This document shows, piece by piece, positions 2,925-47,210 of a stretch of DNA of 64,000 bases (positions are counted from its first letter, which is position 1; each line of letters begins with the position of its first letter). Source of the DNA: Methylophilaceae bacterium. GTDB lineage: Bacteria; Pseudomonadota; Gammaproteobacteria; Burkholderiales; Methylophilaceae. Under the pieces are notes generated by a model that saw only the letters and a program-made list of their open reading frames with translations, did not search any database and had not been told where the DNA came from. The DNA lies in the NCBI GenBank assembly GCA_028355955.1, contig JAOMTQ010000004.1, positions 1 through 64,000 on the forward strand. Reading direction: 5' to 3'. The position numbers and the translations under genes were made by a program.

Positions 2925-4181
2925 TTAGGATTCTGATAGAACCTTTTCCCCTTTAATAAGATCATCAAAAGTTTCTTTCTCTCTTATTGTATAAATTTTA
3001 TGTTTATCAATCATCAGTTCGTATAGCCGTGGCCTTGAATTATAGTTTGAGCTCATTGACATTGCATAAGCCCCTGTATCCATGATCACTAAAATATTAT
3101 TTGGCTCTATACTGATCACTCTGTCCTTTCCAATAAAATCACCTGTTTCACAAATTGGTCCCACAATATCAAAAACAGATTCCTTATCAGTTGTCTCTGA
3201 AGTATTAAAAATCTTGTGGAAAGCACCATATAACGATGGTCTCATTAGATCATTCATTGCAGCATCTATAATTGCAAAGTTTTTATCTTGAGTCTTTTTT
3301 ACATATTCTACTTTTGTCAAAATGGCACCTGCATCTGCCATAATTACCCTTCCAGGTTCTAATAAAATTTTGAAGCCTCTTCCTTTAGTTAATGTGAATA
3401 CTGCTTTTGCATAGTCATCAAAGGCAATAGTTTTTTCATTGTTGTAACTTATCCCGATGCCTCCCCCAATATCCATATGCTTAATTTTTATGCCTACTAA
3501 TTCTAATTTATCAATTAATGCGATTAACTTTTTTACTGAGTCTTCAAATGGTTTCAGATCTGTAATTTGTGAGCCAATATGACAATCAATTCCTTTTATT
3601 AAAATTGAATCCATAGTTTTAGCCTTTTTATATAAAATCAAAGCAGACTCTTCACTTACACCAAATTTATTCTCTTTAAGACCGGTTGATATATATGGGT
3701 GGGTATTAGCATTAACATCAGGGTTTACTCTAATAGATATAGATGCTTTTTTATTTAATGACTTTGCTATTTCTTGAATTCTAATCAGCTCATCCTCTGA
3801 TTCAATATTAAAGGCAAGAATGTTATTTTCTATAGCTAGTTTAATTTCTTCTGAAGTTTTACCTACTCCAGAAAAAACAATTTTCTTAGGGTCCCCATTA
3901 GCAGCAATAACTCTTCTCAGCTCACCGCCTGAAACAATATCAAAACCTGCTCCATTTTTTGCAAGAAGATTTAATATTGCTAGATTAGAATTTGCTTTAA
4001 CAGCAAAACAAATTAAATGATCTACATTTTTAAATGCAGATTCTAAGTTCTTAAAGTTATCTACTATTCTTTGTTTAGAATAAATATAAGTTGGAGTACC
4101 AAACTTTTCTATAATTGACTCAATGCAGACATCCTCAACAAAAAATTTGTCTTTTTTCTTAATTAAAATTGAAGAGTTCAT
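2925..4181 (-). CDS. lysA: diaminopimelate decarboxylase
   Basis: This PLP enzyme makes lysine from meso-diaminopimelate. The 418-residue fold-type III decarboxylase shows the lysine-bearing segment CFAVKANSN, the HIGSQI block, the glycine loop GGGIG, the LEPGR phosphate-binding motif and the C-terminal CETGDF region with the active-site cysteine. It starts immediately downstream of the lptM stop codon, an lptM-lysA arrangement common in proteobacteria. Confidence 0.97.
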   Translation of the reverse strand: MNSSILIKKKDKFFVEDVCIESIIEKFGTPTYIYSKQRIVDNFKNLESAFKNVDHLICFAVKANSNLAILNLLAKNGAGFDIVSGGELRRVIAANGDPKKIVFSGVGKTSEEIKLAIENNILAFNIESEDELIRIQEIAKSLNKKASISIRVNPDVNANTHPYISTGLKENKFGVSEESALILYKKAKTMDSILIKGIDCHIGSQITDLKPFEDSVKKLIALIDKLELVGIKIKHMDIGGGIGISYNNEKTIAFDDYAKAVFTLTKGRGFKILLEPGRVIMADAGAILTKVEYVKKTQDKNFAIIDAAMNDLMRPSLYGAFHKIFNTSETTDKESVFDIVGPICETGDFIGKDRVISIEPNNILVIMDTGAYAMSMSSNYNSRPRLYELMIDKHKIYTIREKETFDDLIKGEKVLSES

Positions 4182-42478: not shown

Positions 42479-44191
42479 GTGAAAGATTATCTAACCAATT
42501 TACTTGATAATGCGCTTAAAAATTTAATTGAAGATTTTGATAAAGATATTATTCAAGTTAGTAGGCCAAAACAAATTCAACATGGTGATTTCTCCACTAA
42601 TGTCAGCCTTCCATTGGCAAAGATTCTAAAAAAGCCACCCCTTGAAATAGCTAATGAAATAATTAAACACATTCCTGTTTCTTTATTAATAGAAAAAGTT
42701 GAAATAGCTGGGGCTGGTTATATTAATTTTTTCTTAAGTTCAGAAGCACGCGTAAAATTAATCAATAAAATTTTGATGGAAAAGGAAGATTTTGGTAAGT
42801 CTTCTTTTGGAAAAAAACAAAAAATACAGGTGGAATTTGTATCTGCTAATCCCACGGGGCCCCTTCATGTTGGTCACGGCCGAGGTGCAGCTATTGGGGA
42901 CTCTATCGCGCGACTTTTAGATGCTACGGGCTGGGATGTAACGAAAGAGTTTTATTACAATGATGCCGGGGCACAAATTAATTCTTTAGCTTTGTCTGTC
43001 CAAGCAAGAGCAAAAAAAATAAATCCAGGTGATAAAGATTTTCCTAAAGATGGTTATCAAGGTGAATATATCGCAGAAATTGCAAATGAAATGGACGGGT
43101 TTAGGGGCTATAGCGATGAAAATATTGACATAATGGAAGAGATCAAGAATCTTACGATACTAAGTTCTGATGAAGTAAAAAAAGATAACAGGCCTCTTCA
43201 TATTGAAGACCTAAATTTAACAGCAGAATACAGTGTTAAATTTCTAAGACGAGAACAAGATTCTGACCTTCGAGCTTTCAATGTAAATTTTGATGTTTTT
43301 AGTCTCGAATCTTCTTTATATAAAAACGGCAAAGTCGATGAAATTGTTAAAATATTAATTAAAAATGGTCACACATATGAAAAAGATGGTGCTCTATGGC
43401 TTAAAACAACCTCGTTTGGTGATGATAAAGATAGAGTAATGAGGAAAACTGATGGTGAGTATACATATTTTGTACCTGACATTGCTTACCACCTCGATAA
43501 ATGGGAGAGAGGATTTAAAAGGGTCATTAACGAACAAGGCTCAGACCACCACAGCACAATAAATCGAGTAAGAGGCGGATTGCAGGCACTAGATAATGGC
43601 ATTCCACTTAAATGGCCTGAGTATGTTCTGCATCAAATGATCACTGTAATGAAAAATAAAAAAGAAGTTAAGATTTCAAAAAGAGCTGGGAGCTATGTCA
43701 CTTTAAGAGACCTTATAGATGAGGTTGGCTGTGATGCAACTAGGTACTTCTTAACTGCAAGAAGACCAGAATCGCAACTTATTTTTGATATTGACCTTGC
43801 CAAAACTAAAAATAATGAAAATCCAGTTTATTACATTCAATATGCTCATGCCAGAATCTCAGGGGTACTTAAACAATGGGGAGGGAGTAAAGAAAGTCTT
43901 AATGTTAAAAATGGAGATAGCATAAAAAATTTAAATGAGCTAAGGCTTATAAAAAGCATTAGTGAATTTCCAGAAGTAGTTGTTCAGGCTGCTGAAGAAC
44001 TAGCTCCTCATCAAATTGCAAACTATCTTAAAGATTGCGCTGCGGAATTCCATAGCTACTATAATGATACAAAGTTTATTATTGATGATAAAAATATTAT
44101 GGAAAACAGACTCGCCCTTATTCGTGCTACACAATTTATATTGAGCAATGGATTGAAGTTGCTTGGAATTAGTGCACCTAATAAAATGTAA
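42479..44191 (+). CDS. argS: arginyl-tRNA synthetase
   Basis: The 570-residue class I synthetase has the ArgRS HIGH segment SANPTGPLHVGHGRGAAIGD, the catalytic region DIAYHLDKWERG, a degenerate KMSKS (KISKRAG) and the anticodon-binding helical C-terminus. The start is a GTG at 42479, the first in-frame codon upstream of the conserved N-terminal domain. argS-SPOR-dsbA is a common betaproteobacterial order. Confidence 0.97.
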   Translation: MKDYLTNLLDNALKNLIEDFDKDIIQVSRPKQIQHGDFSTNVSLPLAKILKKPPLEIANEIIKHIPVSLLIEKVEIAGAGYINFFLSSEARVKLINKILMEKEDFGKSSFGKKQKIQVEFVSANPTGPLHVGHGRGAAIGDSIARLLDATGWDVTKEFYYNDAGAQINSLALSVQARAKKINPGDKDFPKDGYQGEYIAEIANEMDGFRGYSDENIDIMEEIKNLTILSSDEVKKDNRPLHIEDLNLTAEYSVKFLRREQDSDLRAFNVNFDVFSLESSLYKNGKVDEIVKILIKNGHTYEKDGALWLKTTSFGDDKDRVMRKTDGEYTYFVPDIAYHLDKWERGFKRVINEQGSDHHSTINRVRGGLQALDNGIPLKWPEYVLHQMITVMKNKKEVKISKRAGSYVTLRDLIDEVGCDATRYFLTARRPESQLIFDIDLAKTKNNENPVYYIQYAHARISGVLKQWGGSKESLNVKNGDSIKNLNELRLIKSISEFPEVVVQAAEELAPHQIANYLKDCAAEFHSYYNDTKFIIDDKNIMENRLALIRATQFILSNGLKLLGISAPNKM

Positions 44192-44203: not shown

Positions 44204-44740
44204 ATGATTGATAACAAAGAAACTAGTGAACAAAAAAAATTTAAGGGGACACCCTTTGCAAATGGCTTATTTTTTGGCGTCTTTCTTGGCATAGTCGTCG
44301 CTATTATAATTACCCTTTTGGTAACAAGTGGAAAAAGTCCTTTTATATCAAAAAAAACTGAAGGATCTTGCATTGAAGTTAACTCTGCCTTAGGTGATGA
44401 GGATGTAATTAATATTGACGAAGATACGAATATAGAAGCTTATGCAGATTCTTATGGAGAAGCTCAAGAGGTCGTACCAAATAATGATAGAGACATTCTT
44501 TACTATATTCAAGTTGGGGCATTTTCAGAAAAGAGAGCCGCCATCAATTTAAAAGCTCGTTTAGCCCTTATGGGTTACGAATCTGTTGTAATGACAGCTG
44601 AGATTGGGGTAAATACTTTTCATAGAGTAAGTGTTGGCCCCTATAAAAATTATGATGATGCGAAAGACAACCGTGAAAAGCTCTTTCTTGAGGGATTTAA
44701 AGCGAACTTAATTAAGTTAACTACACCTAAAGACTATTAG
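44204..44740 (+). CDS. SPOR-domain membrane protein (FtsN-like)
   Basis: A 178-residue bitopic membrane protein: a short cytoplasmic N-terminus, one membrane helix (about residues 20-41), an acidic periplasmic linker, and a C-terminal SPOR domain (YYIQVGAFSEKRAAINLKARL ... VSVGPYKNYDDA). SPOR domains bind denuded septal peptidoglycan. Linked to argS and dsbA, as in many betaproteobacteria, where it is annotated as a cell-division SPOR protein. Whether it is the functional FtsN is inference. Confidence 0.87.
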   Translation: MIDNKETSEQKKFKGTPFANGLFFGVFLGIVVAIIITLLVTSGKSPFISKKTEGSCIEVNSALGDEDVINIDEDTNIEAYADSYGEAQEVVPNNDRDILYYIQVGAFSEKRAAINLKARLALMGYESVVMTAEIGVNTFHRVSVGPYKNYDDAKDNREKLFLEGFKANLIKLTTPKDY

Positions 44741-44756
44741 ATAAAGGATTAAAACC

Positions 44757-45392
44757 ATGAAGAAATATATTTTATTGCTTACATTATTATTATCAAGCAT
44801 CGCTTTTGCCGTTGAACCAAAATTTAATGATAATTTTAAACAAACTAAAAACGAAATTGAAACTTCCTCTCCAGGGAAAATTGAAGTAATCGAATTATTT
44901 TGGTATGGCTGTATTCATTGTTATACCATGGACCCTTACCTAGATAAATGGGCAGATGCGCTTCCTGATGACGTTGTATTTAAAAGAGTACCTGCTATTC
45001 CCAGAAAAAGTTGGGTTCCAGGAGCAAAAGCTTTCTACGCATTAGAAACGCTTGGTTTAGAAAAAGAATTACATGAAAAATTATTTGATGCTATTCATAA
45101 AGAGAAAGACCTTGATCCCAATAATGAAAAAGCGCTGATCGACTGGGTTACTTTAAATGGAAAGCTTGATAAAAAAGAGGTTAAATCTGCCTTTAATAGC
45201 TTTTCGATTGATACGAAACTAAAAAAATCTTACAAGATTTTTAAAGAGGCTGGGGCTACGGGCGTACCAACAATTATTATTGATGGAAACTATATGACTT
45301 CAAGCACAATGGCTGGGGGTGAACAGAATGCTATTGATATTACAAATTATATAATTGAAAACATTAGAAACGATAAAAAAAAATCTAACTAA
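44757..45392 (+). CDS. dsbA: periplasmic thiol:disulfide interchange protein
   Basis: DsbA introduces disulfides into secreted proteins. The 211-residue protein has a signal peptide cleaved near AFA-VEP (residue 18), the thioredoxin fold with active site C52-I-H-C55 in FWYGCIHCYTMDP, and the cis-proline GVPTII. The usual active site is CPHC; here the proline is isoleucine, which would be expected to alter the redox potential (inference). It also has a SMAGG-type insertion near the end (MAGGEQ). Confidence 0.93.
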   Translation: MKKYILLLTLLLSSIAFAVEPKFNDNFKQTKNEIETSSPGKIEVIELFWYGCIHCYTMDPYLDKWADALPDDVVFKRVPAIPRKSWVPGAKAFYALETLGLEKELHEKLFDAIHKEKDLDPNNEKALIDWVTLNGKLDKKEVKSAFNSFSIDTKLKKSYKIFKEAGATGVPTIIIDGNYMTSSTMAGGEQNAIDITNYIIENIRNDKKKSN

Positions 45393-45466: not shown

Positions 45467-46519
45467 ATGCATCAACACCGCACACCTGAAAATATTAGTG
45501 ACCACATCGCTTTAATTATCACAAAAACTCTTCGTTTTTTCGCCGACACATTTTTCGCAAAGCGCTATGGGCATAGAGCAGTTGTTTTAGAGACTGTTGC
45601 TGCTGTTCCAGGAATGGTTGGTGGGATGTGGATTCATTTAACTTGTTTAAGAAAAATGCAAAGTGATCGAGGTTGGATAAAGATCCTTCTTGATGAAGCG
45701 GAAAATGAACGAATGCATCTCATGACTTTTATCGAGATTGCCCAACCGAAGTGGTATGAAAGAATGATTATTCTTGCTGCTCAAGCAATCTTTTGGAATT
45801 TTTACTTTTTATTGTATGTTTTTTTTCCAAGAACTGCCCACAGGCTAGTTGGCTATTTTGAGGATGAAGCTGTAATTAGTTATACCTCTTACTATGAGCA
45901 AGTTTCTTCAGACCTAACTTTAAATGTAGACGCACCCCAAATCGCAAAAGATTATTGGAATTTACCAAACGATGCTAAGTTACTTGATGTTATTAAAGTG
46001 GTTCGAGCTGATGAGCAAAAACACGCAGATGTTAATCATGGTCGTGCAGATTCTTTAGATAAGCCTGACAGATTGACAGCAATAAAAAAAGAACCAAACT
46101 TTACTAAGGTTAATCCCGTAAACATTCAGTCATACACAGATGCGAATTATCATATTTACGATAAGCCACTATTTGTTATAAATATCGGTGTCGAAAGCTC
46201 AGGTCTTAATAAGCTTTATGAAAAATATGGGGTAAATGAGGCTGCGGTTTTAACAGCCTATAACCCGATGAGCCAAGAGACAAACGATAACGACAATAAA
46301 AAAAATAATAAACAATTAGAGATAATTTTAAAAGACCAAAAGTTATCTTACATTCGTGCTGAAGGTATCTGTCCTGATAATAAATGGCCTGGGGAAGAAA
46401 GTTTTCTCGTTCTTGGATTGACATTAAATGCTGCTAAAGATCTGGGTACAAAATTCAAACAAAATGCAATTGTTTGGTCAGATCATTCAACTATTTCTCA
46501 ATTAATTTTATTAAGATAA
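45467..46519 (+). CDS. alternative oxidase fused to a C-terminal DUF3293 domain
   Basis: A 350-residue single reading frame. Residues 1 to about 200 are a bacterial alternative oxidase (AOX), a membrane-bound diiron ubiquinol oxidase that reduces oxygen to water without pumping protons. All diiron ligands are visible: E42 (VLETVAAVPG), E81/H84 (ENERMHLM), E132 (FEDEAVISY) and E183/H186 (ADEQKHAD). A hydrophobic helical stretch lies at about residues 100-120. Residues about 225-350 match DUF3293: LTAYNPMSQ, a WPGEESFLVLGL block and the FKQNAIVW segment. Stand-alone bacterial AOX is about 210-230 residues, so this is an addition. Start ATG 45467 follows AAGG; a TTG one codon earlier is in frame. 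Confidence 0.85.
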   Translation: MHQHRTPENISDHIALIITKTLRFFADTFFAKRYGHRAVVLETVAAVPGMVGGMWIHLTCLRKMQSDRGWIKILLDEAENERMHLMTFIEIAQPKWYERMIILAAQAIFWNFYFLLYVFFPRTAHRLVGYFEDEAVISYTSYYEQVSSDLTLNVDAPQIAKDYWNLPNDAKLLDVIKVVRADEQKHADVNHGRADSLDKPDRLTAIKKEPNFTKVNPVNIQSYTDANYHIYDKPLFVINIGVESSGLNKLYEKYGVNEAAVLTAYNPMSQETNDNDNKKNNKQLEIILKDQKLSYIRAEGICPDNKWPGEESFLVLGLTLNAAKDLGTKFKQNAIVWSDHSTISQLILLR

Positions 46520-46937: not shown

Positions 46938-47210
46938 ATGTCAAAAATAAACTCCACTTTCTCTGAGGAAGATGTCTCTCGTATTATAGAAATGGCTTGG
47001 GAAGATCGAACACCATTTGAAGCTATTTTAAAAAATTACGGGCTAGATGAGCCTAAATTAATGCGGCTCATGCAAGCTAACTTAAAAAAATCTTCATATA
47101 AACTTTGGAGGAAAAGAGTAAAAGAAAAGTCTATTAAGCATTTGAAATTACGTTCATCAGATATCACCAGAGCTTATTGTCCTACACAATATAAATTAAC
47201 CCGTAAATGA
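46938..47210 (+). CDS. DUF2805 / TIGR03643 family protein
   Basis: A 90-residue basic protein. The layout EEDVSRIIEMAWEDRTPFEA, YGLDE, LMRLMQANLKKSSYKLWRKRV and a C-terminal RSSDITRAY matches the small DUF2805 (TIGR03643) family, with the helix-turn-helix-like core and conserved LW-R-V. Function is unknown; DNA or RNA binding is suggested by the basic content. It lies 190 bp downstream of the previous small membrane gene; that gap holds no convincing gene. Confidence 0.8.
   Translation: MSKINSTFSEEDVSRIIEMAWEDRTPFEAILKNYGLDEPKLMRLMQANLKKSSYKLWRKRVKEKSIKHLKLRSSDITRAYCPTQYKLTRK

Follow-up and report, generated by a model that had tools for sequence, protein, structure and literature searches.

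Why should an alternative oxidase (AOX) carry a domain of the DUF3293 family at its C-terminus, and what may that domain do there? The window analysed, a stretch of 64,000 nucleotides from a Methylophilaceae bacterium, holds one open frame in which the two families are joined (Table 1). A TTG one codon upstream of the ATG is a possible alternative start of this frame. The Pfam search on the protein gave PF01786 (AOX) at residues 3–194 with an E-value of 4.9e-78 and PF11697 (DUF3293) at residues 262–335 with an E-value of 1.6e-22. Both matches lie above the curated cut-offs (262.1 bits against 22.7 and 80.3 bits against 25, respectively). The first-pass annotation had read the frame as a single-frame fusion and had named both families, and it was right on each count. 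It had also assigned about 125 C-terminal residues to DUF3293. The family holds for that part and the length does not, as the unit including its N-terminal part covers about 137 residues. In the full-length model, residues 201–222 have a pLDDT below 50 and are taken as a disordered linker.

Table 1. Features of the fusion locus, with the alternative fusion of a sister species. Coordinates are window positions unless a locus is named.
Feature	Position	Strand	Basis or remark
AOX-DUF3293 fusion gene	45467-46519	+	open frame, ATG start, 350 aa
AOX domain, residues 1-198	45467..46060	+	PF01786; T. brucei AOX sequence and predicted fold
Diiron ligand codons	45590..46024	+	E42 45590, E81 45707, H84 45716, E132 45860, E183 46013, H186 46022
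Linker, residues 199-222, with KKEP	46061..46132	+	low pLDDT; linker comparison
DUF3293 domain, residues 214-350	46106..46516	+	PF11697; Pfam core 46250-46471; model; apparent SAM-lyase relation
Lyase-site-aligned codons	46295..46462	+	N277 46295, G300 46364, E310 46394, S312 46400, Q332 46460
Protein with two hydrophobic segments, 74 aa	46523..46747	+	starts 3 nt past the fusion stop; segments by eye
DsbA-like protein, upstream	44757..45392	+	PF01323, E 2.3e-9; order kept in five other fused loci
178-aa neighbour, SPOR-type by eye	44204..44740	+	order kept in five other fused loci
Arginyl-tRNA synthetase (argS), named by eye	42479..44191	+	order kept in five other fused loci; used for tree
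AOX-OYE fusion	L037:5578-7332	-	PF01786 and PF00724 scores; likewise L038, L039, L041, L045, L047

The oxidase half is complete. The six expected iron ligands, four Glu and two His, are all there, as had been noticed at first sight, and each of them is kept in all 39 AOX rows of alignment A8. Their identities follow the trypanosome enzyme and were mapped via an alignment to T. brucei AOX. The likeness to T. brucei AOX (3vv9) extends from these ligands to the sequence (phmmer E 1.5e-49) and to the predicted fold (46–47% identity in Foldseek). Judged by its sequence, the AOX half is most likely a normal membrane-bound diiron quinol oxidase, for which cyanide insensitivity is predicted. AOX is a dimer. 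The difference from AOX (PF01786) elsewhere is the addition of the 137 DUF3293 residues.

The fusion was found in six of the 31 genomes of the genus, namely the window genome, G014, G017, G019, G022, and G023. The five sister fusions are 73–92% identical to the window protein, that of G017 being readable up to the contig end. Pairwise dN/dS among the six fusions was 0.02–0.09 for the AOX half (14 of 15 pairs, one being saturated) and 0.10–0.29 for the DUF3293 half (15 pairs). These ratios are rough, as many pairs have a dS above 1. An assembly error or a sequencing frameshift joining two genes, the danger named by the first-pass annotation, has practically no chance, because the same fusion recurs in five other genome records and both halves are under purifying selection. 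The protein consists of two complete, selected domains, each predicted by the models to fold on its own.

AOX is present in 18 of the 31 genus genomes. Their frames were read as six AOX-DUF3293 fusions, seven fusions of AOX to a flavoprotein, Old Yellow Enzyme (OYE), four solo AOX, and one remnant. At the family level, AOX occurs in 52 of 187 genomes, and frames longer than 300 aa appear in this genus only. The class sample had AOX in 10 of 369 genomes and the phylum sample in 19 of 398 (own genome included); neither gave a further AOX fusion, as judged by frame length. The AOX frames outside the genus are at most 292 aa in the samples searched, setting aside a 343-aa frame in G611. The latter was rejected as another fusion, as it has an unrelated upstream extension only. 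Among the AOX relatives in viral-labelled contigs (80 of 87 kept), the longest frame is also 292 aa and no fusion was found by length. The architecture, which had been proposed for a search across genomes, recurs and is confined to one genus in the samples searched, judged by frame length. The genus is read as OM43-type Methylophilaceae with small genomes. OM43-type Methylophilaceae are marine and use methanol. In the literature searched, which covered few subscription papers, no description of an AOX-DUF3293 or an AOX-OYE fusion was found by title, in line with the initial remark that such a fusion was not known as described. The same literature, again with few subscription papers covered, yielded no paper on DUF3293, none linking OM43 with AOX or AOX with SAM lyase, and by title nothing relevant on AOX in Methylophilaceae.

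The surroundings of the gene are conserved. All five sister fusions sit behind argS, the SPOR-type gene, and dsbA; the sister ORFs of argS match a start near 42533. The small membrane protein that follows the fusion, correctly recognised from the start as an adjacent two-helix protein, gave no Pfam family at E 1. It travels with the fusion: all six genomes with the fused gene have it, and G029 is the only other one among the 31 of the genus (7 in total). Near the fusion gene, a promoter scan found 7 sites, shuffled sequences having 9.7 on average, and a terminator scan found 0. Further downstream in the window, a DUF2805/TIGR03643 protein is encoded at 46938-47210 on the forward strand. Its gene has the same place in L032, L033, and L036, the three sister loci with contigs reaching that far.

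In seven of the 31 genus genomes, the same locus holds the AOX-OYE fusion. PF00724 (OYE) was detected in these same seven, where the frame of G009 ends at a contig end. The nearest PDB sequence to the OYE part of L123 is the glycerol trinitrate reductase 5epd (E 1.9e-120). The AOX-OYE of the sister species and the window fusion share the locus, the upstream genes, and a related linker. They differ in the C-terminal partner, which is an FMN reductase (PF00724) in the former and DUF3293 in the latter. The linker motif is KKEEP or KREEP in all seven AOX-OYE proteins and KKEP or KQEP in all six AOX-DUF3293 proteins. A KKEEP-like motif is absent from 14 outgroup AOX tails and from all four solo AOX of this genus. 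In G029, one of the seven AOX-OYE genomes, DUF3293 begins 9 nt past the AOX-OYE stop, in the same frame, and another 4 nt separate it from the small membrane protein. Because of the shared locus, the G029 arrangement, and the related linker motifs, the two fusions are best understood as two alternative forms of the same locus. As to the origin of the join, we prefer an in-frame deletion, by which the OYE segment between AOX and the downstream DUF3293 gene would have been lost. This is a preference, and the reverse order with OYE inserted fits the data equally. In the AOX tree, G029 joins the fused clade with support of 95/92, but the tool marks its row as long and its placement as uncertain. 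Neighbour-gene trees put G029 with the solo-AOX species (86.5/84 and 84.1/86), and the fused clade is hardly resolved from the rest in a neighbour-gene tree (31/61).

Several minor observations belong to this locus. Broken frames are frequent in the G029 contig (L045), and the K found at the E183 position of its AOX, probably a sequencing error, is not trusted. The AOX-OYE gene of L037 is flanked by a short-chain dehydrogenase and a peroxiredoxin (Pfam), with frames of the same size in L038, L039, and L041. AOX-OYE could possibly be a one-protein route from NAD(P)H to oxygen. Beyond the AOX-OYE unit, L037:1766-4469 encodes two Sel1-repeat proteins and a sigma-70-like factor. In solo-AOX species (L042:6966-8401), PD-(D/E)XK and YqaJ-type viral recombinase genes abut the AOX end on the opposite strand, as if the segment behind AOX had been swapped for a phage-type insertion. 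L279 (G002) keeps only a 62-residue C-terminal AOX remnant near 3859-4023, close to two frames that by eye resemble a short-chain dehydrogenase and YqaJ.

For the understanding of the DUF3293 half, its predicted fold was compared with known structures. The domain model, built with 48 rows, had a pLDDT of 93.8. Its elements (E46-49, H61-77, E82-88, E97-103, H107-116, and E121-125, with others before and after) fit in their order the beta-alpha-beta-beta-alpha-beta sandwich of the PII / GlnB-like superfamily, with PDB fold matches that are weak by E-value. In the PDB, Foldseek ranks two chains of 7ock first, an entry titled 'MAT in complex with SAMH'. The better one has a prob of 0.93, an E-value of 0.42, and a TM of 0.48, the other a prob of 0.72 and an E-value of 0.70; no match reached E 0.001 in this search. 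We take 7ock to contain the T3 enzyme, and from their length the matched chains are probably the lyase. Behind them, the PII-like proteins SbtB, PstA, and CutA are among the weak matches, scattered amid unrelated proteins. With the full-length model, the first PDB match that is not an AOX was 6znb, a phage SAM lyase (prob 0.72, E 0.20). The best BFVD match is a DUF3293 protein of a phage (E 8.3e-10). Several small proteins of phages reach a prob of 1.00 there, two of them under the name SAM hydrolase (ranks 14 and 22). The better of them, at rank 14, has an E-value of 3.5e-3, and a third SAM hydrolase stands at rank 26 (prob 0.98). By sequence, no solved relative of DUF3293 was found (best E 0.78), PHROGs gave one unnamed family only (E 0.0024), and a tblastn search of the window DUF3293 against 50,697 phage records had no match at E 1.

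The relation to SAM lyases was then examined with profile alignments. The first hhalign comparison, of 48 DUF3293 rows with nine lyase rows, was weak (E 0.061), and 8 of 300 shuffles were as good. A comparison of 76 DUF3293 rows, with two duplicate pairs inside and one row with X letters dropped, against 13 SAM lyases reached a score of 32.4 and an E-value of 6.9e-5 at a probability of 63%, not above 90%. The conclusion on SAM lyases rests on these enlarged sets, which were enlarged after the weak first result had been seen; subsample and control comparisons were run for that reason. None of 200 column shuffles was as good (maximum 18.05), and reversed profiles gave 12.54 and 11.84. The score was 24.95–34.25 in 20 subsamples, 33.28 without the fused rows, and 28.84 with the six least T3-like lyases. 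Twelve controls, in which each profile was compared with AOX and five locus families, did not exceed 18.47.

The printed alignment, read by eye, pairs the domain with T3 at N64-N27, G87-G55, E97-E68, S99-T70, Q119-Q94, and N120-D95. E97 and Q119 of the domain correspond to E310 and Q332 of the fusion protein. Over the 76 DUF3293 rows, the conservation of N, E, and Q is 1.00 and that of S and G is 0.89. According to the accessible part of PMC7877911, Glu69, Ser71, Gln104, Gly56, and Tyr58 of Svi3-3 are located at the ligand, and Glu68 of T3 is the counterpart of Glu69. T3 Q94 would be the counterpart of Svi3-3 Q104. The domain resembles the phage SAM lyases (T3 gene 0.3, Svi3-3; PF23780) in predicted fold, in element order, and in SAM-site residues (the aligned Gly, Glu, Ser/Thr, and Gln). 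In contrast, the lyase tyrosine (T3 Y57, Svi3-3 Tyr58) has no partner in DUF3293, T3 Y57 falling in an insertion of the hhalign alignment, and no DUF3293 residue matches the lyase-invariant R19 there. The protein also differs in being bacterial, in being fused to a membrane oxidase, and in being undetected by PF23780 (S-AdoMet_lyase) at E 1, whereas the T3 protein scores 143.2 bits against a cut-off of 28. The SAM-AMP lyase of type III CRISPR loci is a bacterial lyase of the PII superfamily and a CRISPR ancillary enzyme, as described in the portion of PMC12255297 available. It has a Glu and a Gln in common with SAM lyase, for which DUF3293 has counterparts at aligned positions. It is set beside DUF3293 here by its description. 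Beside these CRISPR SAM-AMP lyases, as far as that portion of PMC12255297 describes them, DUF3293 would be a further, separate cellular group. From profiles and models, DUF3293 looks like a relative of the phage SAM lyases with a PII-like fold. The domain had been called uncharacterised; this agrees with the literature searched, and the apparent lyase relation now gives a lead.

We propose the following explanation, for which we see about even chances. AOX would carry a soluble DUF3293 at its C-terminus, with a flexible linker of some 20 residues in between. Since it appears to have the PII-like fold of the lyases and keeps their ligand-holding Glu and Gln, DUF3293 would bind SAM or a related adenosyl compound, which it may also cleave. 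A unit that senses or removes the ligand would thus be placed at the quinol oxidase, and non-pumping respiration would be tied to the SAM or adenylate state. The fusion would have arisen by the deletion described above. A more far-reaching form of this explanation is distinctly speculative. The protein might be a bifunctional or ligand-gated oxidase, with DUF3293 as a cellular branch of the SAM lyases, by which the fusion would tie the non-energy-conserving respiration of the OM43-type bacteria to the SAM (methyl or adenylate) pool. The AOX gene of this genus might then have been a socket for exchangeable C-terminal modules, either OYE or SAM-lyase-like. The full-length monomer model has two folded parts, a disordered linker, and a pTM of 0.55. 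A contact of DUF3293 with the diiron domain, which the first-pass annotation had suggested looking for, did not appear with confidence in this model. No interface is claimed because of this pTM and the disordered linker. For the regulator or partner-binding module that the first-pass annotation had considered, the data speak neither way. The fused assembly is hard to picture because SAM lyases are trimers and AOX is a dimer; the lyase trimers have their sites at the interfaces (PMC7877911 and PMC12255297, in the parts accessible).

Among the alternatives, the one that survives best is that AOX and DUF3293 keep separate jobs. The join would be a by-product of deletion in a streamlined genome, and the link would be co-expression only. 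We regard this as possible, if tentatively. DUF3293 also occurs without AOX. A phylum sample of 299 genomes, own included, has the family in 24, and of 55 loci found in another search three are AOX fusions. Within the genus, 10 of the 31 genomes have DUF3293, six of them in the fusion and four (G013, G025, G027, and G029) as a lone gene. The disordered linker, the domains packed without confidence, and the small genomes (complete relatives have about 1.3 Mb) point in the same direction. Against separate jobs, AOX is joined at this locus to another partner, OYE, in sister species, and six genomes have retained the fusion with selection on each half.

A doubtful alternative is that DUF3293 is a non-catalytic, PII-like allosteric sensor of adenine nucleotide, SAM, or another ligand, which would switch AOX. 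Fungal and protist AOX are activated by purine nucleotides, a role comparable to that of such a sensor. That a non-pumping oxidase should need regulation is plausible, and SbtB, PstA, and CutA among the weak fold matches are consistent with a sensor. However, the kept Glu and Gln match an enzyme site, no sensor loop was identified, and no coupling is visible in the monomer model.

It is unlikely, in our view, that the similarity to SAM lyases reflects a shared PII-like (ferredoxin-like) fold only, so that the residue match is chance and DUF3293 does something else. The weak first profile comparison, the modest Foldseek E-values, the missing Pfam cross-match, and the unmatched R19 and Y57 of the lyases would all suit such a reading. 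The enlarged profiles with their shuffles and reversals argue against it, as do the subsamples, the leave-out comparisons, and the control families. Moreover, the alignment pairs the lyase-invariant N27, G55, E68, and Q94 with DUF3293 residues (N, G, E, and Q) that are invariant or, in one case, conserved at 0.89. An adenosyl-binding domain tethered to a normal quinol oxidase is kept as the most likely explanation. Two alternative fusions at the same locus amount to natural experiments on the feeding or control of AOX, which among non-pumping quinol oxidases is the best known. The apparent SAM-lyase link opens a cheap biochemical test for a domain present in 24 of the 299 phylum genomes sampled.

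The neighbours of lone DUF3293 genes were also tallied. From the 55 loci, 19 were dropped as fused or near-fused, close duplicates, or fragments, and small, very long, and distant frames were left out. This gave 119 proteins, of which 113 were scanned (six from L112 and L144 were out). No dominant partner family appeared for these 113 proteins among the best 25 of 82 families listed. The same best 25 include WYL (4), DUF4148 (3), MsrA (PMSR, 2), SelR/MsrB (1), and S-AdoMet synthetase (1), given as raw counts. The lone DUF3293 genes L121:5419-5952 and L150:5419-5949 adjoin MsrA-like genes (by eye, with PMSR scores in two neighbours), and L140:4813-5415 adjoins an MsrB gene (Pfam).
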